64,000 nucleotides of DNA from Bordetella ansorpii (GTDB taxonomy: Bacteria > Pseudomonadota > Gammaproteobacteria > Burkholderiales > Burkholderiaceae_B), in assembly GCF_900078705.1 (NCBI RefSeq), contig NZ_FKIF01000002.1:930001-994000 (forward strand), given 5' to 3'. The translations under genes and the position numbers were made by a program. A model generated the notes under the pieces. It saw only the letters and a program-made list of their open reading frames with translations. It was not told where the DNA came from and ran no database searches. This document shows positions 4,234-23,132 of the stretch, one piece after another (position 1 is the first letter of the stretch; every line of letters begins with the position of its first letter).

Positions 4234-5584
4234 TGCGGCGGTGTACCGGCCTGGCCGGAACACCGCCGAGACCGAGGTCATCGCTGCTGCGGCTGAGGGC
4301 GGGCCGTCCGCCTGCGGTGGATGGCGTTTTGTGCTCCGCCAGCGAATCAAGGTAATCCGCCCAGGCTTGCGCCATCTCGTGGCGCTGTTCGATGAAGCGG
4401 GTCCTGTCATAGGCTTCGCCCAGTTCTTCATCGGAGACGTGCGCCAGGTGCTTCTCGATCATTTCCCTGTCCCATCCCAGTCTTTCCCGGATGAGCGTTC
4501 GCGCCATCGCCCGGAAGCCGTGGCCTGTAATGTCCGTTTGGGTGTCGTACCCCAGGGCGCGCAGGGCGCTGTTCATCGTGTTGTCCGAGATGTAGCGCGA
4601 ATAGCCGTTCTTGCCTCGCCGGCGTGACACGCTCTTGAAGACGGGGCCACTCGGCCCTGTGACTGTGTGAAGCTGGCGAAGAATGTCAACGACCTGCGTG
4701 GGTAGGGGAACGGCGTGCGGAGGCACACGTCCGCTATTTTTGTGGGCCTCTCGTGCCTTCATCATGCGCGGCGGGCAAATCCAGATGCCGGCATCGAGAT
4801 CGAGCTGCTCCCATTCCATCTTCCGTATCTGCCCAGGGCGTTGAAACACATAGGGCATGATTCGCAGCGCGCAGCAGACGATGTAGTGCCCCTTGTAGCC
4901 TCTGATGTCGCGTAACAGTTGCCCGATCTTACCGGGCTCCAGGATGGTGGCGTAGTGCTTGACGATTGGACTGCGCAGCTTGAAGTCGGCCACGCCTTTG
5001 GCCATGTAGTTCTGGCCTGGCTCCAGGAGTCCCAGTGTGACCGCCCGCGCAAAGACGCGTTGCAGGCTTTCCCGCAGCCGGATGGCGGTTTCACGGGTGC
5101 CGGCCAGCGAAACGGCTTCCAGACATTGCAGGACGTCCAGCCGGTCCAGCGAGCCGATGGGGTGGCGGCCCAGCCTTGGGAAGGCGTGCAGTTCCAGTTG
5201 CCGCAGGATCTTCTGGCTGTAGTCCTCGCTCCACTCGTGGATCTGTTTGGCGTGGGCGTGCCACTCGCGCGCTACTTTCTCGAAGGTGGCCAGCGCGTGG
5301 CGCCGCGCCTCTTGGTGGGCCGCACGCATCACTTGGCGAGGATCTTTGCCCGCCAGCAGGTTGAGGCGTTGCTGTTCGGCAGCAGTGCGGGCGGCCGCCA
5401 GCGACATGGCGGGATAAGCGCCGAGGGTCAACTTGACTCGGCGACCCGCGATGTCGGAATAGAGGAACAACCAGCTTTTCGAGCCTCTTGGCTGTATCCG
5501 GAGATACAGTCTGTCCCCGTCAGGCAGCATGTACTCTTTGTCGGCCGGCTTGGCGGCTTCCACGGTCTTCACGGTCAGTTTCAT
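4193..5584 (-). CDS. int: P4-type tyrosine integrase
   Basis: The 463-residue site-specific recombinase has an N-terminal arm-binding domain of the DUF4102 kind (LPDGDRLYLRIQPRGSKSW), a SAM-like core-binding domain, and a catalytic domain. Visible catalytic residues are Arg in FQRPGQIRKMEW, His-x-x-Arg in GHGFRAMA (about 355-358), His in EKHLAHV and the likely nucleophile Tyr392 in YDRTRFIEQR. The gene starts 175 bases from tRNA-Phe, the likely integration target. The last ~43 residues (from PSTAGGRP) look unlike the family and overlap the AlpA-type gene, as if the normal stop had been lost. Confidence 0.95.
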   Translation of the reverse strand: MKLTVKTVEAAKPADKEYMLPDGDRLYLRIQPRGSKSWLFLYSDIAGRRVKLTLGAYPAMSLAAARTAAEQQRLNLLAGKDPRQVMRAAHQEARRHALATFEKVAREWHAHAKQIHEWSEDYSQKILRQLELHAFPRLGRHPIGSLDRLDVLQCLEAVSLAGTRETAIRLRESLQRVFARAVTLGLLEPGQNYMAKGVADFKLRSPIVKHYATILEPGKIGQLLRDIRGYKGHYIVCCALRIMPYVFQRPGQIRKMEWEQLDLDAGIWICPPRMMKAREAHKNSGRVPPHAVPLPTQVVDILRQLHTVTGPSGPVFKSVSRRRGKNGYSRYISDNTMNSALRALGYDTQTDITGHGFRAMARTLIRERLGWDREMIEKHLAHVSDEELGEAYDRTRFIEQRHEMAQAWADYLDSLAEHKTPSTAGGRPALSRSSDDLGLGGVPARPVHRRISSAPGALLHPEQ

Positions 5585-5625
5585 AGCGCACCCCCAAGAG
5601 TTCCTCGGATTTCAGCGGAAATCTT

Positions 5626-5646
5626 AGGGGACTGTTTGAGGGGACT
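5626..5646. repeat. Tandem AGGGGACT repeats upstream of the integrase
   Basis: AGGGGACT occurs at 5626-5633 and again at 5639-5646, one copy every 13 bases, between the integrase start and tRNA-Phe. Short direct repeats at this place fit arm-type binding sites for the N-terminal domain of the integrase. No binding data are available, and the copy number is only two. Confidence 0.45.
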
Positions 5647-5655
5647 AAAACCCTG

Positions 5656-5671
5656 GGATTCGGCGGAATCC
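5656..5671. promoter_or_regulatory. Inverted repeat in the integrase-tRNA interval
   Basis: GGATTC and GAATCC flank a 4-base spacer (GGCG). The repeat lies in the integrase promoter region, between the AGGGGACT repeats and the tRNA. It could bind a regulator or an excisionase. This is inferred from symmetry only. Confidence 0.3.
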
Positions 5672-5759
5672 GATGAGACAGTATGGGAGAGGAATTTGAC
5701 GCAAGCCCTTGATTTCGTAGAAGAAATGGGACTTGGTGAGATCGTGCGGGACAGGCGAA

Positions 5760-5777
5760 TGGTGGCCTGGGGCGGAA
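5760..5777. other. Presumed attachment site core at the tRNA-Phe 3' end
   Basis: P4-type integrases usually recombine within the 3' part of a tRNA gene, which the element then restores. The tRNA here is complete through its encoded CCA. The core therefore probably starts at base 5760 and runs into the T-arm. The matching repeat at the far end of the element lies outside the window, so neither length nor position can be confirmed. Confidence 0.4.
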
Positions 5778-5835
5778 TCGAACCACCGACACGCGGATTT
5801 TCAATCCGCTGCTCTACCAACTGAGCTACCAGGCC
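5760..5835 (-). tRNA. tRNA-Phe (GAA)
   Basis: On the minus strand the 76 bases fold as a standard cloverleaf. The acceptor is GGCCTGG/CCAGGCC, the D-arm contains AGCTCAGTTGGTAGAGC, the anticodon loop is TTGAAAA (anticodon GAA), the T-arm is GGTTCGATTCC, and the 3' CCA is encoded. It is intact, although its 3' end borders the integrated element. It is transcribed away from hemA, toward the element. Confidence 0.97.
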
Positions 5836-12647: not shown

Positions 12648-13847
12648 ATGTCCGCTGCAAACCCCTTGCCCTACGAGGGCATCCGCGTCATCGAATTCAC
12701 CCACATGGTCATGGGGCCGACCTGCGGCATGCTGCTGGGCGACCTGGGCGCCGAGGTCATCAAGATCGAGCCGGTGGGCGGCGACAGCACGCGCCGGCTG
12801 CTGGGCTCGGGCTCCGGCTTCTTCCCCATGTTCAACCGCAACAAGAAAAGCGTGGTGCTGGACCTGAAGCAGCCCGAAGGCGTGCAGGCCGCGCTGCGCC
12901 TGATCGACACGGCCGACATCGTCAGCGAAAACTTCAAGAGCGGCGTGATGGACAAGCTGGGCCTGGGCTACGAGACACTTGCGGCCCGCCATCCCGGGCT
13001 GATCTACGTCAGCCACAAGGGCTTCCTGGCGGGGCCCTACGACAACCGCACGGCGCTGGACGAAGTGGTGCAGATGATGGGCGGACTGGCGTACATGACG
13101 GGCCGGCCGGGCGATCCCGTGCGCGCGGGCACCAGCGTCAACGACATCATGGGCGGCATGTTCGGCGCCATCGGCGCGATGGCCGCGCTGGCGCAGCGCG
13201 GGAAGACGGGCCAGGGCACGCACGTCGAGGCCTCGCTGTTCGAGAACAACGTGTTCCTGATGGGCCAGCACATGCTGCAGTACGCCGCCACGGGCCGCGC
13301 GCCCGCGCCCATGCCCAGCCGCGTGGCCGCCTGGGCGGTGTACGACGTATTTACGGTGAAGGACGGGCAGCAGATCTTCCTGGCGGTGGTCAGCGACAAG
13401 CAGTGGAAGATATTCTGCCGCGCCTTCGGCATGGACGACCTGCTGGCCGACACGCGCCTGGCCACCAACAACGACCGCGTGCAGGCACGCGAATGGATGA
13501 TGCCCGAACTGCGCAGCCGGCTGGCGCAGCGCAGCGCGGCCGAGCTGGCCCAGGTGTTCGAGGCCGAGGGCCTGCCCTTCGCGCCCATCACGCGTCCCGA
13601 ACAGCTGTTCGACGATCCCCATCTGGCCGCCACCGGCGGCCTGGCGCCGATACGCATGAACGACGGCAGCACCTCGCGCGTGCCGTTGGCGCCTTTCACG
13701 CTGGGCGGCGCCCAGCCTCCCGTCCGCTTGCAGCCGCCGCGCATCGGCGAACACTCCGAGGCGCTGTTGCGGCAGGCGGGCTATGCCGACGCGGACATCG
13801 AATCCATGAAGGCAAGACGAATCACACAAGGAGACAGCACATCATGA
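12648..13847 (+). CDS. Family III CoA-transferase (CaiB/BaiF)
   Basis: The 399-residue protein has the family hallmark start GIRVIEFTHMVMGPTCGMLLGDLGAEVIKIEPVGG split over the N-terminus, and an acid-binding Asp near residue 166 (SVNDIMGGMFGA) that corresponds to the catalytic aspartate of formyl-CoA transferase. Family III enzymes move CoA between carboxylic acids. It probably makes the CoA ester cleaved by the preceding lyase. An in-frame ATG at 12630 would add six residues. Its stop overlaps the start of the Bug gene. Confidence 0.92.
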   Translation: MSAANPLPYEGIRVIEFTHMVMGPTCGMLLGDLGAEVIKIEPVGGDSTRRLLGSGSGFFPMFNRNKKSVVLDLKQPEGVQAALRLIDTADIVSENFKSGVMDKLGLGYETLAARHPGLIYVSHKGFLAGPYDNRTALDEVVQMMGGLAYMTGRPGDPVRAGTSVNDIMGGMFGAIGAMAALAQRGKTGQGTHVEASLFENNVFLMGQHMLQYAATGRAPAPMPSRVAAWAVYDVFTVKDGQQIFLAVVSDKQWKIFCRAFGMDDLLADTRLATNNDRVQAREWMMPELRSRLAQRSAAELAQVFEAEGLPFAPITRPEQLFDDPHLAATGGLAPIRMNDGSTSRVPLAPFTLGGAQPPVRLQPPRIGEHSEALLRQAGYADADIESMKARRITQGDSTS

Positions 13848-14836
13848 TTTCCCTCACTCGCCGGCAGTTGCTGGGCGCCGCGCTGGCGTCTGGCGCCTTG
13901 CCCGCCTGGACCCAGGCGTTCGCCCAGCAGTCCGAGTTTCCGGGCAAGCGTCCGATCCGCCTGGTCGTGCCCTACACGCCGGGCGGCGGCACCGATGCGA
14001 TGGCGCGACTGACCGCCGAGAAGATGGCCGCCGAGGCGGGGTGGAGCGTGGTGGTCGAGAACCGCCCCGGCGCGGGCGGCAACATCGGGCTGGACCAGGT
14101 GGCGCGTTCGCAGCCCGATGGCTACATGCTGGGCATGGGCCAGACGGCCAACCTGGCGATCAATCCGGCGCTGTTGCCCAACATGCCGTTCGACGCGGCC
14201 AGGGATTTCACGCCGGTGGCGCTGGTGGCGTCGCTGCCCGTGATCCTGGTGGTGCGGGCGAATTCGCCCTGGCAGTCCGTGCAGGACGTGGTCAAGGCCG
14301 CGCAGGCCAGGCCGGGCGAGGTCAAGCAGGCGCTGGCGGGCACCGGCACCGTCGGCCACCTGGCCGGCGAGCTGCTGGCCTACGATGCGAAGTTCAAGGT
14401 GCTGAACGTGCCGTACAAGGGCGCGGCCCCGGCGCTGAACGACCTGCTGGGCAACAACACCGACTATATGTTCTCGACGGCGCCCGCCGTCCAGGAGATG
14501 GTGCGCGGCAAGGTGCTGCGCGCGCTGGCGGTGACGTCGGGCGAGCGCCTGGCGATCCTGCCCGACGTGCCGACCGTGGCCGAATCCGGTTTTCCCGGCT
14601 TCGAGGCGCTGGACTGGAAGGTGCTGGTGGCGCCGGCCAATACGCCCAAGGACGTGGTCGAGAAGCTGAACGGCGTGATGGAAAAGGTGCTGGCCAATCC
14701 GGCCACGAAAAAGTACCTGGCCAGCGAAGGCAGCCAGCCGATGGGCGGCAGCGCCGATCATGCAAGGCAGTACCTGGCGGCCGAGCAGAAGAAGTGGGCG
14801 GGCCTGATCCAGGACGCGAAGATCACGCTGGGCTGA
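13844..14836 (+). CDS. Bug-family (TctC-like) periplasmic substrate-binding protein
   Basis: The 330-residue protein starts with a twin-arginine signal (LTRRQLLGAALASGALPAWTQAFA). The Bug fold follows, with the RLVVPYTPGGGTDAMAR loop that binds a carboxylate and the typical NVPYKGAAPALNDLLGNNTDYMF region. Bug receptors of tripartite tricarboxylate transporters capture organic acids in the periplasm. No TctA/TctB membrane genes are nearby. The 4-base overlap with the CoA-transferase gene ties it to the lyase pathway, so its ligand is probably that pathway's substrate. Confidence 0.93.
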   Translation: MISLTRRQLLGAALASGALPAWTQAFAQQSEFPGKRPIRLVVPYTPGGGTDAMARLTAEKMAAEAGWSVVVENRPGAGGNIGLDQVARSQPDGYMLGMGQTANLAINPALLPNMPFDAARDFTPVALVASLPVILVVRANSPWQSVQDVVKAAQARPGEVKQALAGTGTVGHLAGELLAYDAKFKVLNVPYKGAAPALNDLLGNNTDYMFSTAPAVQEMVRGKVLRALAVTSGERLAILPDVPTVAESGFPGFEALDWKVLVAPANTPKDVVEKLNGVMEKVLANPATKKYLASEGSQPMGGSADHARQYLAAEQKKWAGLIQDAKITLG

Positions 14837-15512: not shown

Positions 15513-16487
15513 ATGCGTACCTGGATGATGGCCGCGCTGGCGGCCTGGGCGCTGCTTGCCGCGGCGCCCGCCGCCGTGGGGCAGGAGGCGGGCAAGCCGC
15601 TGACGATCCTGGTCGGTTATCCGCCCGGCGGCAGTTCCGACCGCGTGGCACGCCTGGTGGCGGATCGGCTGAAGGACAAGCTGCGCACCTCGGTGATCGT
15701 GGAGAACAAGACGGGGGCGGGCGGACGCATTGCGGCGCAGTACCTGCGCAATGCGCATGAGGACGTGGCGCGCGGCACGCTGATGCTGGCCAACCCGGCC
15801 GTGATGGTGGTGGCGCCGCTGGTGTATGCCCAGCCTGGCTACGACGCGGCGCGCGACTTCCAGCCCGTGTCGCTGGTCAGCAGCTATCACTTCGCGCTGG
15901 CGGTATCGGCCAGTTCGCCCATCCATGACGTGGCCGCGCTGCGCAAGTGGGTGAAGGAGCATCCCAGGCAATTCACCGTGGGGGTGCCCGCCACCGGCAG
16001 CCTGCCGCATTTCTTCGCGCTGATGTTCGGCCAGCAGATCGGACAGCAGCCCGAGGTGGTGGGCTATCGTGGTTCGGCGCCGCTGACGTCCGAGCTGATC
16101 GGCGGCATCCTGCCACAGGCCATCGACACGCTGGATACGCTGCTGCCGCAGCACCAGGGCGGCAAGATCCGCATTCTGGCGATCTCCGCCGACAAACGCG
16201 ATCCGGCCCTGCCCGACGTGCCCACCTTCCGTGAAAGCGGCATCGACCTGTCCGCCGACGGCTGGAACGCATTCTTCGCCTCGTCGGCCATGCCGAAGGA
16301 GCAGGCGGACAGGCTGGGCAAGGAGATCGAGGCGGTGATGCGCGAGCCCGCCCTGCAGCAGGCCATCCGTGCCGTGAACCTGGAGCCCGTGGTGGCCGAC
16401 GCGGCCGAGACCGCCCGCCGCCTGCAGGCCTACAGGCAGCAATGGGAACCGCCCGTGCGCGCTTCCGGCTTCACCGCCACGCAGTAA
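15513..16487 (+). CDS. Bug-family periplasmic substrate-binding protein
   Basis: The 324-residue protein has a Sec-type signal peptide (MRTWMMAALAAWALLAAAPAAVG) and the Bug ligand loop LVGYPPGGSSDRVARLVA. GGGTD of most homologues is replaced by GGSSD. A conserved C-terminal part (LAISADKRDPALPDVPTFRESG) follows. The start at 15513 has GGGAG eight bases upstream. The gene is 10 bases before the sulfatase gene, so the bound ligand may be the sulfatase substrate or product. Confidence 0.92.
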   Translation: MRTWMMAALAAWALLAAAPAAVGQEAGKPLTILVGYPPGGSSDRVARLVADRLKDKLRTSVIVENKTGAGGRIAAQYLRNAHEDVARGTLMLANPAVMVVAPLVYAQPGYDAARDFQPVSLVSSYHFALAVSASSPIHDVAALRKWVKEHPRQFTVGVPATGSLPHFFALMFGQQIGQQPEVVGYRGSAPLTSELIGGILPQAIDTLDTLLPQHQGGKIRILAISADKRDPALPDVPTFRESGIDLSADGWNAFFASSAMPKEQADRLGKEIEAVMREPALQQAIRAVNLEPVVADAAETARRLQAYRQQWEPPVRASGFTATQ

Positions 16488-18114: not shown

Positions 18115-18918
18115 CTAGGCGTACTTGCCGGTCAGGCCGCCGTCGACCACCAATTCCGTGCCGGTGATGTACGAGGCCGCGTCGGAAGCCAGGAAAGCCA
18201 CGGCATTGGCCACTTCCCACGGTGTGCCCATGCGCTGCATCGGGACCTGCCGGTCCCGGGCCGCGCGCGCGGCGTCGAGATCGGTGGCGTCGAACATGCG
18301 CGCCACGTTTGCCGCCACGCGAGGTGTGTCGATCAGGCCGGGCACCACGGTGTTCACTCTGATGCCATCGGCAGCGTACTGTTGCGCCGCCATGCGCGCA
18401 AAATGGATGACGGCCGCCTTGGTCACGCTGTAGGCCAGGTGAGGATAGCCCACGTATCTGAGGCCCGCGACGGAAGAGACCGTCACGATCGCGCCGCCGC
18501 CCTGCCGGCGCATGATGGGGACGACCAGCCGCGTGGCAATCAGCAGGCTGGTGACATTGACCTGCTGGATGCGTTCCCAATCGGACAGCTCGGTGTCCTC
18601 GATGCCGCCCACCTTGCCGATCCCCGCATTGGCCTGCAGGATGTCGATCCGCTCATAGCGGGCCAGGGCCGCGTTCACCGCGGCCTGCATGGCCTGGGGG
18701 TCGGCCACGTCCGCCTGGACGGCCAGGGCCTGGCCGCCGGCTTGCGACACGGCCTGGGCAGCGTCCCGCGCGGCCTGCGGGTCGTGATCCAGCGCCACCA
18801 CGGCCGCGCCCTGGCGCGCCAGCGTCACGCAACTGGCCTTGCCGATGCTCCAGCCGGGCGCCGAGCTGCCAGCGCCGGCCACCAGCGCCACCTTGCCGGA
18901 CAGCGGTCCGCCGTTCAT
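18115..18918 (-). CDS. Short-chain dehydrogenase/reductase
   Basis: The 267-residue protein has a Rossmann-type nucleotide site of the form [12 protein letters not shown], in which the usual GxxxGxG is extended by extra residues. It also has NAG (QANAGIG) and the catalytic Tyr-x-x-x-Lys in [14 protein letters not shown]. The C-terminus ends in the SDR-typical [17 protein letters not shown]. It is the last gene of the Bug-ligase-lyase operon, 55 bases after the lyase, and converges with the sulfatase gene. It probably oxidises or reduces a pathway intermediate; the substrate is unknown. Confidence 0.9.
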
Positions 18919-18973
18919 GGCAGGCCCCCGCGCCGGCGGGCCGCGACGGCCTTTCGGGCGTGCGGCGTTGCGC

Positions 18974-19768
18974 TCATGTCGCGCTCCGGTCTTGCTGGTG
19001 CGAGACGCCTGCGCCGACGTAGGGGATCGCTTCGTCGATGGTTTCCCAGATGAACCGGCCCGAGGGACTTTGCTGCTCTTCCGCGACGTGCGACACGAGG
19101 CCGGCCGCGCGCGAGATCACCGCGAAGCCACGCATCAGGGCAGTGGGTACGCCGATCTCGCCCAACAGGGCCGCGACGGCGCCCGTTGCGTTGATGGTGA
19201 TGTGCTTGCCGTAGGCCTGGTCGATGGCGTCCGCCAGCAGGCGCAGGGCGCGCAGCCAGTCTCCGGGCAGGTCGGATTCCGCTTCGGCCAGCGCAAGCAG
19301 TTTCACCGCGCGCGGATCGTCGGGTTTGTGCAGATGGTGGCCGAAGCCCGGCAGCGCGTGCCGTGATTGCCGGTACTCCTGGGCGATGGCCCGGGCCTCG
19401 GCGGGCGCGTCGGCGGCTTGGCGGATGCGCGCCAGCAATCCGGAGCAGTTCTCCATGGTGCCGACGAACCGGCTGCCGACGGCCATCAGCCCCGACGCGA
19501 CCGCGCCCTGCAGGTTTTCGGGGGCGCTCATGTAGACCACCCGGGTGGCGATGGCGCTGGGAGTCAGGCCGTGCTCCATCAACGTCACCAGCACGGCATC
19601 GACGATCCGCAGATCCACGGGGCGGGCCGGCCGTCCCAGGATCTGCATGACCATGACTTCGGTGAACGTCTTCTTTCCGATCAGGTCCTCGACCAGATCG
19701 GCGTCACGGTAGTACATGCCCGTCAGATGGTGGGCACAAAGCCGGGTTTCAGGCGAGGGGGGACTCAT
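18974..19768 (-). CDS. Citryl-CoA lyase-like protein (citrate synthase fold)
   Basis: The 264-residue protein resembles the citryl-CoA lyase domain of ATP-citrate lyase and short citrate-synthase-like lyases: [18 protein letters not shown] near 93-110, and [14 protein letters not shown] with the CoA/oxaloacetate-site His144. Such enzymes cleave citryl-CoA to acetyl-CoA and oxaloacetate. At the place of the catalytic aspartate in the NVDG-type motif, this protein appears to have NATG (residues 193-196). The chemistry or substrate may therefore differ. Its start overlaps the stop of the CoA ligase gene by 4 bases, which supports a ligate-then-cleave pathway. Confidence 0.82.
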
Positions 19769-21270
19769 GCGATCTCCTTCAGCGCGGTTTCCCGCACGGC
19801 GTTCTTCAACACCTTGCCCACCGACGATTTCGGCAGGCTCTGGTGAACATGGATGTGCTTGGGCGTGTGCACGGGACCGAGCAGGCCGCGCACGTGTTCC
19901 TGCAACGCCTGGGCGTCGGCGCTGCAGCCGGGATGGAACTGCACCGCCGCGTGCACGGCCTCGCCCCATTTCTCGTCGGGCAGTCCGAACACCGCGCATT
20001 CGTAGACGGCGGGGTGCGAGGACAGGGCATTCTCGACATCCACCGGATAGACGTTGAACCCGCCGGTGATGATCACGTCGCGCAGGCGGTCTTTCAGGAA
20101 CAGGAATCCGCGTTCGTCCACCAGGCCCACGTCGCCCGTGTGCAGCCAGCCGTCCACCAGCGTTTCGGCAGTCTTGTCCGGCAGCCGCCAATAGCCCGTC
20201 ATGACCAGGTCGCCGCGGACCACGACTTCCCCCATTTCGCCGGCGGGCAGCAGCTTGCCGTCGGGCGCCCTGATGGCCAGTTCGGAGTACCAGGTGCAGC
20301 GGCCCACCGACCCACGGTTGGCGGGATCTTCCAGCTCGCCGGGCGGCAGCACGGTGACGATCTGCGGGGCCTCGGTCTGGCCATAAGTGGTGCCCAGGAC
20401 CGGCCCGAAGAACGCGCGGGCACGGTCGATCAGCTCGGGCGGCATGGGCGCCCCGCCGTAGATCAGGTTGCGCAGGCGGGGAAAGTCGGCGCGCGAGACG
20501 CCTTCCTGCGCCATCAACATGTAGATCAGGGTCGGCGGCATGAAACTCATCGTGCCGCCGCGTTCGCGGAAGGCCTGCGTCACGGCGGCGGGGCCGCTGC
20601 CGTCCAGCAGGAGGTGCGTGCCCCCCTGCGCCAGCACGGGCAGCAGGTAGGTGCCCGTTCCGTGGGTGATGGGGGCGCAGACCACGTAGCGGTCTTCGCA
20701 CGTCAGTTTCCAGTGGGCGATCTGGTTGACGATGCCCGCGTTCCAGGCGCGGTAGGGCTGCATCACCCCCTTGGGCAATCCGGTGGTGCCACCGGTGAAC
20801 TTGATGGCCTGCGTGGCGTCGCGCGACAGGTCGTGCCGTGCCGGCTGCTGGCCCGCATGCCTGTGCAGCAGCGATGCCAGCGTGGGCGAGCCAGGGGCGT
20901 CGTGCAGGTGTACCCTTCCCGCGGCAGGGGGGCCCAGCAACGGCAGCCCGCTTTCATCGCCGATGATGATGCTGGGCTGCGTGGCGTCGAGGATGCGGCC
21001 GATCTCGCGTTCGGTGCTGCGGTAGTTCAGCGGCACCCAGATCTTGCCGCTGGCCAGTACGGCCAGCAGGGCCAGGATGTGTTCGGCGGTGTTGCCTGCG
21101 CACAGGGCGACGCGGCTTTGCGGCTCGGGATCCAGCGCCTGCAGCGCGGCCGCCAGGGCGCGGACCTGGGCGGCCAGCTCGGCGTAGCAAAGACTGCCTT
21201 GCGGCCCGGACAGCGCAATGCGCTCGGGATGGCGCTGCGCGGCGCGGAAGAAGAAATCGATGGGATACAC
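19765..21270 (-). CDS. AMP-forming acyl-CoA synthetase
   Basis: The 501-residue member of the ANL superfamily has the phosphate-binding loop KFTGGTTGLPKGVMQ, the ATP motif TYGQTEAP, the HTGDVG hinge-side motif (DGWLHTGDVGLVDERGF) and the C-terminal lysine segment LPKSSVGKVLKNAVRE. It should activate a carboxylic acid with ATP and CoA. Placed between a Bug receptor gene and a citryl-CoA-lyase-like gene, it probably supplies the CoA ester for that lyase. Annotation as a long-chain fatty acid ligase would be misleading here; the context suggests a small polar acid. Confidence 0.92.
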   Translation of the reverse strand: MYPIDFFFRAAQRHPERIALSGPQGSLCYAELAAQVRALAAALQALDPEPQSRVALCAGNTAEHILALLAVLASGKIWVPLNYRSTEREIGRILDATQPSIIIGDESGLPLLGPPAAGRVHLHDAPGSPTLASLLHRHAGQQPARHDLSRDATQAIKFTGGTTGLPKGVMQPYRAWNAGIVNQIAHWKLTCEDRYVVCAPITHGTGTYLLPVLAQGGTHLLLDGSGPAAVTQAFRERGGTMSFMPPTLIYMLMAQEGVSRADFPRLRNLIYGGAPMPPELIDRARAFFGPVLGTTYGQTEAPQIVTVLPPGELEDPANRGSVGRCTWYSELAIRAPDGKLLPAGEMGEVVVRGDLVMTGYWRLPDKTAETLVDGWLHTGDVGLVDERGFLFLKDRLRDVIITGGFNVYPVDVENALSSHPAVYECAVFGLPDEKWGEAVHAAVQFHPGCSADAQALQEHVRGLLGPVHTPKHIHVHQSLPKSSVGKVLKNAVRETALKEIA

Positions 21271-21285
21271 CTGGGACTCCTCGGG

Positions 21286-22272
21286 TCAGTTGGCCTTGAG
21301 GTTCGCGGCTCGGACCACCTTGCCCCATTTGTCGATCTCGCTGGCGACCCATGCGGCAAAGTCCGAACGTCCGTTGGGCGGTGGCGGGGCCCAGAAACCC
21401 GATTTTTCGTAGGCCTGCTTGATCTGCGCGGTGGCGAGTGCCTTGTTGACGGCCTCGTTCAGCCGGTTCAGGATGGGTTGGGGCGTACCGGCCGGGGCCA
21501 TCAGCCCGAACCAGGACTGCACCTCGAAACCCTTCAGGCCGCTCTCGTTCAACGTGGGCACGTCTGGCAGGGAAGCCAGCCGGCTGCCCGAGGTCACGCC
21601 GATGGCGCGCAGTTTGCCTGCCTGCACGTGCGGCAGCGAGGAGGGCAGGTTGTCGAACATGGAGTCCACCTGGCCGCCCAGGAGGTCGGCCACGGCCGGG
21701 CCGCTGCCGCGGTAGGGCACGTGAAGAATGTCCACTGCGGTCTGCATCTTGAACAGTTCGCACGACAGGTGGATCGACGAGCCGTTGCCGGACGAGGCGC
21801 AGGTCAGCTTGCCTGGGTGTTCCCTGGCGTAATGGATGTACTCCTGCACCGTCTTGACCGGCACCTTGGGATTGACCACCAGGACGTTCGGAATGGTGGC
21901 CAGCATCGCGATGGGGGCGAAGTCCTTCACGAAGTCGTAGTTCAGCTGCGAATAGAGCGTGCGGTTGATCGTGTTGGCGATCGACCCCACGTAGAGCGTG
22001 TAGCCGTCGGGTTGGGCGCGCGCCACGATCTCGGCTCCGATGTTGCTGTTGGCGCCCGTCTTGTTCTCGACCACGACGGTCTGGCCCAGCACGTCGGACA
22101 GCGATTTGGCCATCAGCCGCGCGACGATATCGGTGGCGCCGCCCGCGGCGTAGCCGACGACCAGCGTGATGGGACGTTGAGGATAGGTTTCGGCGGCCGT
22201 CGCGGCATGGGCCGTGAACAGGGTGCTGGCCGAGACGAGCGCGGCGCGAATGAGCCTGGGAAGCGACACCAT
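21286..22272 (-). CDS. Bug-family periplasmic substrate-binding protein
   Basis: The 328-residue receptor has a Sec signal peptide (LIRAALVSASTLFTAHAATAA), the ligand loop TLVVGYAAGGATDIVARLMA and the family-typical VPYRGSGPAVADLLGGQVDSMF. It is the first gene of a four-gene operon (Bug, acyl-CoA synthetase, citryl-CoA-lyase-like, SDR) divergent from an IclR gene. The start at 22272 gives the usual N-terminus; the frame is open for some distance upstream. A tricarboxylate or related hydroxy acid is a plausible ligand, since some Bug proteins bind citrate. Confidence 0.93.
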   Translation of the reverse strand: MVSLPRLIRAALVSASTLFTAHAATAAETYPQRPITLVVGYAAGGATDIVARLMAKSLSDVLGQTVVVENKTGANSNIGAEIVARAQPDGYTLYVGSIANTINRTLYSQLNYDFVKDFAPIAMLATIPNVLVVNPKVPVKTVQEYIHYAREHPGKLTCASSGNGSSIHLSCELFKMQTAVDILHVPYRGSGPAVADLLGGQVDSMFDNLPSSLPHVQAGKLRAIGVTSGSRLASLPDVPTLNESGLKGFEVQSWFGLMAPAGTPQPILNRLNEAVNKALATAQIKQAYEKSGFWAPPPPNGRSDFAAWVASEIDKWGKVVRAANLKAN

Positions 22273-22289
22273 GGGTTGTCTCCTGATTT

Positions 22290-22306
22290 TGTCTAATATT
22301 TGGACA
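22290..22306. promoter_or_regulatory. Candidate IclR operator, copy 1
   Basis: Read on the minus strand this 17-base site is TGTCCAAATATTAGACA, with TGTC/GACA ends. It shares its first ten bases (TGTCCAAATA) with the site at 22364-22380, in inverted orientation. It lies 18 bases before the Bug start, in the space between the Bug operon and the divergent IclR gene. Confidence 0.55.
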
Positions 22307-22363
22307 GATCTGTGCCTGTCGAGACCTATATTCAGGTGCAATGCCCGCATCGCCAACGGTACT

Positions 22364-22380
22364 TGTCCAAATAATGAACA
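22364..22380. promoter_or_regulatory. Candidate IclR operator, copy 2
   Basis: TGTCCAAATAATGAACA on the plus strand repeats the ten-base core of the site at 22290-22306 and ends in a TGTC.../...ACA type symmetry. It overlaps the ATG at 22374, one of two possible starts of the IclR gene. Binding here would repress that gene directly. Confidence 0.5.
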
Positions 22381-23132
22381 ACGAAACCTCTGCCGAGAGT
22401 GGCCCGCGCGTCCTGCGGCGCGGCCTGCGGATCCTGCGCGTGCTCAGGGAGGCGGGGGCGGGCGGCCTGCACGTGGTCGAGATCGCCCGGCGCGTGGGGA
22501 TGCAGCGATCCACGGTGTATCGCTACCTGGACGTGCTGGTGGAAGAGGGGTACGTGGTACGTGAACCGGACGCCGTGCGCTGGCGCACCGCCGAAACGGC
22601 CGCGCTGATGGCTGCGGACCCGCATGCCGAAGCCGTGCGGCGCCTGCGGCCCGCGATGCGGCGGATCAGCGATGCCAGCGGCGATTCGTCCTTTCTGATC
22701 GTGCGCGCGGGCGGCGACTCGCTGTGCCTGCATCGCGAGCTCGGCAATTACGCCGTGCAGGTCCTGGCCGTCACGGTGGGCCACCGCCAGCCGCTGGGAG
22801 TGGGGGCCGCCGGGCTGGCGTTGCTGTCGGCGCTGCCGGACGCCGAGGCGCGGGAGGTCATTGCGCAGAACGCCGGGGCGCTGCGCGCCTACGGCGGAAT
22901 GACGGTCGAGCAGATGCGGCGGCTGGTGAGCAACACGCGCGATCGCGGCTGGGCCGTGGTGGGAAACTCGGCCGTTCCGGGAGTGCTGGGCGTGGGCGCG
23001 GCGCTTTGCGACGCGGGCGGCTATCCGCGCGTGGCGGTCAGCGTATCCAGCCTGATCGACCGGATGCCGGCCGGGCGCCAGCGCGCCATTGCGCAGCAGA
23101 TCCGAACCCAGCTGGCACAGGCGCCCTTATGA
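22374..23132 (+). CDS. IclR-family transcriptional regulator
   Basis: The product (252 residues from this start) has the winged helix VLRRGLRILRVLREAGAGGLHVVEIARRVGMQRSTVYRYLDVLVEEGYV and a C-terminal IclR effector domain. An in-frame ATG at 22341 would add 11 residues. The start at 22374 is preferred because the added residues look unlike the family and a putative operator overlaps this region. It is divergent from the Bug/ligase/lyase/SDR operon and is the likely regulator, with two 17-base sites between them. Confidence 0.88.
   Translation: MNNETSAESGPRVLRRGLRILRVLREAGAGGLHVVEIARRVGMQRSTVYRYLDVLVEEGYVVREPDAVRWRTAETAALMAADPHAEAVRRLRPAMRRISDASGDSSFLIVRAGGDSLCLHRELGNYAVQVLAVTVGHRQPLGVGAAGLALLSALPDAEAREVIAQNAGALRAYGGMTVEQMRRLVSNTRDRGWAVVGNSAVPGVLGVGAALCDAGGYPRVAVSVSSLIDRMPAGRQRAIAQQIRTQLAQAPL

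Follow-up and report, generated by a model that had tools for sequence, protein, structure and literature searches.

What does a protein of the citrate-synthase fold do after it has lost two of the three catalytic residues of that fold? This question is raised by an operon in a 64-kb stretch of the Bordetella ansorpii genome (6.2 Mb; the whole stretch is called the window, and coordinates are window positions unless said otherwise), which encodes a Bug/TctC solute-binding protein, an AMP-forming acyl-CoA ligase, a citrate-synthase-fold protein of 264 residues, and an SDR dehydrogenase. The citrate-synthase-fold protein, called the lyase-like protein in the following, scores 464.9 bits against the NCBIfam model NF004867 (PRK06224.1-4, an equivalog named "citryl-CoA lyase"), whose curated cut-off is 409. 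The active site gives no support to this name, which is probably wrong.

The active site

The original prediction, made from the letters of this stretch, had pointed to His144 in the motif GFGHHLHK and to a motif NATG at residues 193-196 where NVDG was expected. Both motifs are present in the translation, and in phmmer alignments NATG pairs gap-free with NVDG of the Hydrogenobacter citryl-CoA lyase 6hxp and with NVDG of the Chlorobium ATP-citrate lyase. Therefore, Thr195 occupies the position of the catalytic Asp. Citrate synthase works with His274, His320, and Asp375 (PMC5518231). Thr195 stands in the place of Asp375, Phe101 in the place of His274, and the equivalent of His320 is present as His144; one of the three triad residues is retained, as are His66, Arg153, Asn193, and Arg220. 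In citrate synthase, Asp375 and His274 handle the enolate, and His320 together with Arg residues holds the oxo-acid.

The citrate-synthase fold is supported. The protein matches the C-terminal domain of PF00285 (2.9e-25), and the predicted single-chain model (mean pLDDT 74.7) has 6hxp as its nearest solved structure (for this model, Foldseek E 3.4e-9; VIA-align Z 20.1, root-mean-square deviation 3.4 over 224 residues). The original prediction had proposed such a structural comparison and had named an acidic residue (Asp or Glu) at the catalytic position as the observation that would speak against its reading of the site; the alignment was searched for one and none appeared, and Thr195 lies at the Asp place of the top match. 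With the stand-alone citryl-CoA lyase of Hydrogenobacter thermophilus (6hxp) the protein shares the fold, the length of about 260 residues that is characteristic of the citryl-CoA lyase family, 29-31% sequence identity, and the equivalents of His66, His144, Arg153, Asn193, and Arg220. However, 6hxp has His101, Arg145, and Asp195 where the window protein has Phe, His, and Thr, and the partner of the window protein is an AMP-forming ligase. By definition, the partner of a citryl-CoA lyase is a citryl-CoA synthetase of the succinyl-CoA-synthetase/ATP-grasp type. Thus, the Asp of N-x-D-G, the His at the His274 position, and the ATP-grasp partner are all missing, and although the protein lies inside the NF004867 sequence family by score, the function name of the equivalog finds no support in its active site. 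The citryl-CoA lyase module of ATP-citrate lyase (6hxn, 6qcl, 6hxk) has the same fold but only 12-18% identity, and the window protein has no fused ligase half and a Thr for the Asp of NVDG. Citrate synthase and 2-methylcitrate synthase share the C-terminal PF00285 domain and the His320-type and Arg residues, but the window protein has a shorter N-terminus than these and lacks equivalents of His274 and Asp375.

Extent and conservation of the Asp-less clade

The altered site is not special to the window operon. We aligned 88 sequences, comprising the window protein, 13 near-orthologues, 60 genome stretches of the family and phylum, 13 plasmid-borne relatives, and the 6hxp fragment; these rows are best-scoring matches and no random sample. 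At position 195 there are 21 Asp, 50 Thr, 10 Ser, 6 Asn, and one Ala. Position 101 is His in all 21 Asp rows and in both citrate synthases of the window's own genome, and in none of the 67 Asp-less rows, which have Phe (49), Ile (10), Val (6), or Tyr (2). At position 145 the Asp rows have Arg (20) or Lys (1), and the 67 Asp-less rows have neither; the window protein has His. The change at this position is less telling because the second citrate synthase of the genome has a Pro there. His66, His144, Arg153, Asn193, and Arg220, among others, are each retained by at least 90% of the rows in either group. By its aligned residues, the clade keeps the oxo-acid-holding half of the citrate-synthase site and loses the enolate half. 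Both the exchange of the His274 equivalent for Phe101 and the clade-wide scope go beyond the original prediction. His144 itself is present in 66 of the 67 Asp-less rows. The exception, locus L115 (genome G074, lyase at about 4989-5789), has a Gln in its place (GFGQHMHK) with the next His intact, which shows that this remaining classical catalytic His can be lost as well; the lyase gene of this 56% relative is surrounded by ligase, Bug, and SDR genes.

A search of the 88 rows for a compensating Asp or Glu, invariant in the Asp-less rows and absent from the Asp group, found none at the lost position. The sole candidates lie elsewhere: Glu65 is found in 65 of 67 Asp-less rows; all 21 Asp rows have Asp there, but the second citrate synthase of the genome shares the Glu. 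Glu231 is present in 67 of 67 Asp-less rows and in three of the 21 Asp rows including 6hxp.

In a tree of the 88 rows a single branch splits the Asp from the Asp-less rows with a support of 100/99. An outgroup tree, built from 38 chosen rows of the 88 and the two citrate synthases of the own genome with the three switching columns omitted, still places 28 Asp-less rows on one side and 12 Asp rows, counting the outgroup, on the other, with an SH-aLRT support of 89. The loss of the Asp is the derived state because the outgroup carries it. Orthologues of the window protein at 69% identity or more are carried by 82 of the 268 genomes of its family, counting the own genome and two partial matches. 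Matches over the cut-off of NF004868 occur in 17 of 398 Pseudomonadota genomes, and in one of these the match is of the Asp type (G268:C7:5674-6357, loci L151 and L198). The NF004868 model therefore puts two active-site types under one name.

In an alignment of the window protein with 40 orthologues at 70-88% identity, all 41 sequences carry GFGHHLHK and NATG unchanged. Because of this invariance NATG is not a sequencing error, and the clade-wide loss in the 88-row alignment further rules out a local oddity. The lyase gene is also not decaying, because its dN/dS of 0.07-0.19 is the lowest among the genes compared in all eight comparisons, each with another genome (two of the eight without the SDR gene). 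A decaying pseudoenzyme is ruled out by these values and the conserved motifs. One orthologous lyase gene, G097:C20:15028-15804, contains an in-frame TGA and is a broken or misassembled copy. The own genome encodes a second Asp-less paralogue with the motif NVSA (C6:1140474-1141232, contig coordinates; L004, L180), which directly adjoins a CoA-transferase III and a Bug gene.

The operon and its relatives

The genes, their coordinates, their order, and their placement on the minus strand are as originally predicted, and Pfam agrees for all five genes including that of the IclR regulator. Transcription runs from Bug/TctC through the ligase and the lyase-like protein to the SDR. The features of the locus are:

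21286-22272, minus strand: Bug/TctC periplasmic solute-binding protein (Pfam PF03401), in an operon without a membrane partner
19765-21270, minus strand: AMP-forming acyl-CoA ligase with a GTG start (Pfam PF00501 and PF13193)
18974-19768, minus strand: Asp-less citrate-synthase-fold protein of 264 residues (PF00285; named "citryl-CoA lyase" by NCBIfam NF004867)
19181-19192, minus strand: codons of NATG (Asn193-Ala-Thr-Gly196), the altered catalytic motif, counted from 19768 and by alignment
18115-18918, minus strand: SDR dehydrogenase (Pfam), accessory
22374-23132, plus strand: IclR-family regulator (Pfam), divergent from the operon
22273-22373, no strand: divergent intergenic region of 101 bases between the Bug and IclR genes, delimited by the gene ends, a candidate control region

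The stop codon of the ligase gene and the start codon of the lyase gene share four bases, and both ligase domains score over their cut-offs (PF00501 243.6 bits, PF13193 65.7 bits). The IclR regulator belongs to the same unit as the operon, although it falls outside the range covered by the original prediction, and to judge from the gene ends the region between it and the Bug gene is likely the control region.

The genome scan confirmed 206 orthologous loci, of which 80 were kept for the comparison of gene order; the neighbour counts rest on simple gene calling and similarity thresholds, and some contigs end early. An orthologue of the ligase lies directly before the lyase gene in 80 of 80 loci, the aligned parts being 0-108 bases apart. 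Bug is found upstream of the ligase in 75 loci, and IclR beyond Bug, at the same place, in 66. The original prediction had counted a redox step among the functions of the set. An SDR of the window type is present downstream in 62 loci at a threshold of 45% (61 at 50%) and a second SDR type in 20, but 17 of the 80 loci have neither type within 2.5 kb. In 14 of these 17, at least 2.5 kb of downstream sequence is available and the absence is clear; in the other three (L053, L060, and L079) only 0.5-1.1 kb follow the lyase gene and the contig may end too soon. The SDR as a fixed redox step is therefore rejected for the orthologue set. The core consists of ligase and lyase, as a rule with Bug, and the SDR is accessory. 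According to rough gene calling, no further gene cluster is present in more than five of 36 loci. The ligase-lyase cluster is conserved in many soil and water bacteria.

Import, as put forward in the original prediction, would depend on the Bug protein. This protein belongs to PF03401 and strongly matches known Bug/TctC proteins such as the terephthalate-binding TBP (8hka) and BugD (2f5x), but the window operon encodes neither TctA nor TctB, so that Bug is an orphan outside a tripartite transporter. The genome has 135 Bug/TctC matches versus five TctA matches, none of which falls into the window. In a related Ponticoccus cluster, TctB and a TTT permease come after. For Bug as for the ligase, solved structures with differing ligands or substrates come out equally near, and homology suggests none in particular.

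More distant relatives were compared for their neighbours as well. Within 4 kb of the gene, 39 of 50 other Asp-less loci (best-scoring matches, several of them near-copies) have a CoA-activating enzyme, which is a family III CoA-transferase in 29 and an AMP ligase in 10, and Bug is present in 26. In the own genome, 23 CoA-transferase III and 34 AMP-binding matches in 6.2 Mb give a chance of about 7% per 8-kb stretch, and the same sum gives about 17% for the 135 Bug matches; these chance levels come from the window's genome only and from Pfam models, as opposed to the tblastn queries used for the loci, and other genomes may differ. The Bug signal is weaker because Bug matches are common. Some Asp-less genes adjoin genes for acyl-CoA dehydrogenase, MaoC, or enoyl-CoA hydratase, as would fit the last step of a CoA-thioester pathway.

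A CoA-transferase is present at 12 of the 20 Asp-type loci, an AMP ligase at none of them. Closeness to CoA activation is therefore common to both types, and the AMP ligase occurs only with the Asp-less type in this sample. The 6hxp-like, Asp-type L198 adjoins an ATP-grasp/citrate-binding protein, which is what a true citryl-CoA system should have. The Pfam counts of neighbours exclude seven of 60 loci in which the lyase was not called (L119, L122, L127, L179, L193, L200, and L205), and the two sets comprise 74 of 78 neighbours (four of the near-orthologue L192 excluded) and, for the Asp type, 55 of 56 (one of L194, which is not of the Asp type, excluded); both sets pool unrelated proteins and were used purely as lists. 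The 55 Asp-type neighbours (L199-L217) include CoA-transferase III (10), TctA (4), HPPD-N (4), AP_endonuc_2 (4), and shikimate-dehydrogenase-like proteins (2). This suggests that a CoA-transferase and a lyase together process a citrate-like acid that arises in the degradation of aromatic or quinate/shikimate-type compounds.

Reaction, substrate, and surrounding genes

The citrate-synthase fold, the altered active site, and the CoA activation alongside it, on which the original prediction was built, are all supported by these data. The most likely reading, at about even odds, is that the operon is a module for import, CoA activation, and cleavage of a 3-hydroxy or 3-oxo acid other than citrate, in which cleavage does not depend on the canonical Asp/His pair. 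The genomic context argues strongly for a CoA thioester as the substrate. C-C cleavage, which the original prediction had read directly from the gene set, is derived from the protein family, and our confidence in it is moderate; in the class of the substrate it is low. In such a module, IclR would control the catabolic genes, Bug would capture a small carboxylic acid outside the cell, and the ligase would make its CoA thioester. The lyase-like protein would then split the thioester into a carbonyl compound and an acyl-CoA, which is most likely acetyl-CoA, and the SDR, where present, might oxidise or reduce a hydroxyl or keto group of the substrate or product. Because the core contains neither a hydratase nor an acyl-CoA dehydrogenase, the acid should already bear its 3-hydroxy or 3-oxo group. 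The retention of Arg153 and Arg220 makes it probable that the site still binds one carboxylate or carbonyl in the manner of citrate synthase, and His144 and His66 may polarise the oxygen. With the His274/Asp375 pair replaced by Phe101 and Thr195, citrate is an unlikely substrate, and the proton for the leaving carbon has to be supplied by water or through a His relay. A C-C lyase acting on a non-citrate acid is favoured because the ligase-lyase pair needs no further core step.

Several observations weigh against this reading. The score over the NF004867 cut-off speaks for the family name. The Gln of L115 means that His144 cannot play its proposed role throughout the clade, 11 of the 50 Asp-less loci have no CoA-activating neighbour, and the near-copies mean that the 50 loci are not independent. 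The support of 89 in the outgroup tree falls below the mark of 95, and the loops of the model are weak, with block-mean pLDDT values of 52-53 at residues 71-100. In addition, hydrolysis, or some other reaction of a CoA ester, would also be compatible with the loss of both Asp and His.

The first alternative is a thioesterase, isomerase, or hydration/dehydration enzyme that acts on a CoA thioester on the citrate-synthase scaffold without cleaving a C-C bond. Exactly the two residues that make and hold the enolate are lost, position 101 has become hydrophobic or aromatic, and the neighbours activate acids with CoA. A site that retains its His and Arg residues but no longer has the enolisation pair would suit a hydrolase, and citrate synthase itself hydrolyses citryl-CoA. 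However, a thioesterase straight after a ligase would be futile, and 17 loci, 14 of them with room for one, have no downstream SDR that could act in between. We consider this alternative unlikely.

It is openly disputed what ATP-citrate lyase uses the active-site Asp of its citrate-synthase-like half for (PMC10115795). In the view of Wei et al. 2023, Asp1026 of the human enzyme is allosteric and non-catalytic, and cleavage takes place in the ligase half. The same paper reports that the D1026A variant shows no time-dependent acetyl-CoA formation, unlike the wild type, and accumulates citryl-CoA. The loss of Asp alone therefore does not exclude cleavage by a stand-alone enzyme. The lyase-like protein could thus be an ordinary citryl-CoA lyase, correctly named as its NF004867 score implies, in which the Asp is perhaps dispensable, or another group stands in for it. 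This is hardly probable given that none of the 67 Asp-less rows has an Asp or Glu at position 195 and the acids Glu65 and Glu231 also occur outside the clade; the D1026A result itself points the other way, and the partner is an AMP-forming ligase, unlike the ATP-grasp protein with a citrate-binding domain next to L198.

The same allosteric model (PMC10115795), the invariant pairing with the ligase, and the loss of two catalytic residues are in line with a non-catalytic partner, which would load CoA or unload the product and control the ligase; such a role has been put forward for the citrate-synthase half of ATP-citrate lyase. But the activators near the Asp-less relatives are of two unrelated kinds, CoA-transferase III and AMP ligase, which makes a common type of metabolite more plausible than a common protein partner, and it is hard to see why a non-catalytic protein would need to retain His144, Arg153, and Arg220. 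Such a role is therefore quite improbable.

There is also just a small chance that the substrate is of the citramalyl-CoA or 3-hydroxy-3-methylglutaryl-CoA type, a citrate look-alike minus one carboxylate, which would explain the strict loss of Arg or Lys at position 145 and the MaoC and acyl-CoA dehydrogenase genes beside some relatives, as these resemble methylsuccinate/itaconate-type routes, but the Pro145 of the second citrate synthase means that this loss need not reflect a missing carboxylate, the loss of the Asp is left unexplained, and the SDRs would have no clear use.

Returning to the cleavage of a non-citrate acid, we see an even chance that the Asp-less proteins as a whole are a widespread catalytic class of their own within the citrate-synthase superfamily, one that has dispensed with the enolising Asp and His and cleaves, or converts in some other way, CoA thioesters of acids other than citrate. 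If so, many bacterial "citryl-CoA lyase" proteins are misnamed, and several routes of carboxylic-acid degradation are hidden behind this name. Across the whole clade, the function name given by NCBI lacks support from the active site. The open-access literature yielded no characterised pathway with this combination of genes, as the original prediction had supposed, and no experiment on any Asp-less or NF004867 member, although subscription papers are mostly absent from it and this is weak evidence of absence. Vanilloyl-acetate cleavage was considered as a candidate reaction, but the literature search on it gave no lead. The conservation indicates a pathway without an assigned function. Because the loss of Asp does not by itself exclude cleavage, a conserved stand-alone clade without the Asp and the His274 equivalent is a direct natural test of what the scaffold is able to do.

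In the vicinity of the operon the window contains two further Bug genes (13865-14824 and 15528-16376) and a CoA-transferase III gene (about 12675-13757). A sulfatase-family gene (PF00884; 16498-18063, plus strand) is convergent with the operon, and its best NCBIfam model is PehA, with a score well below the cut-off.

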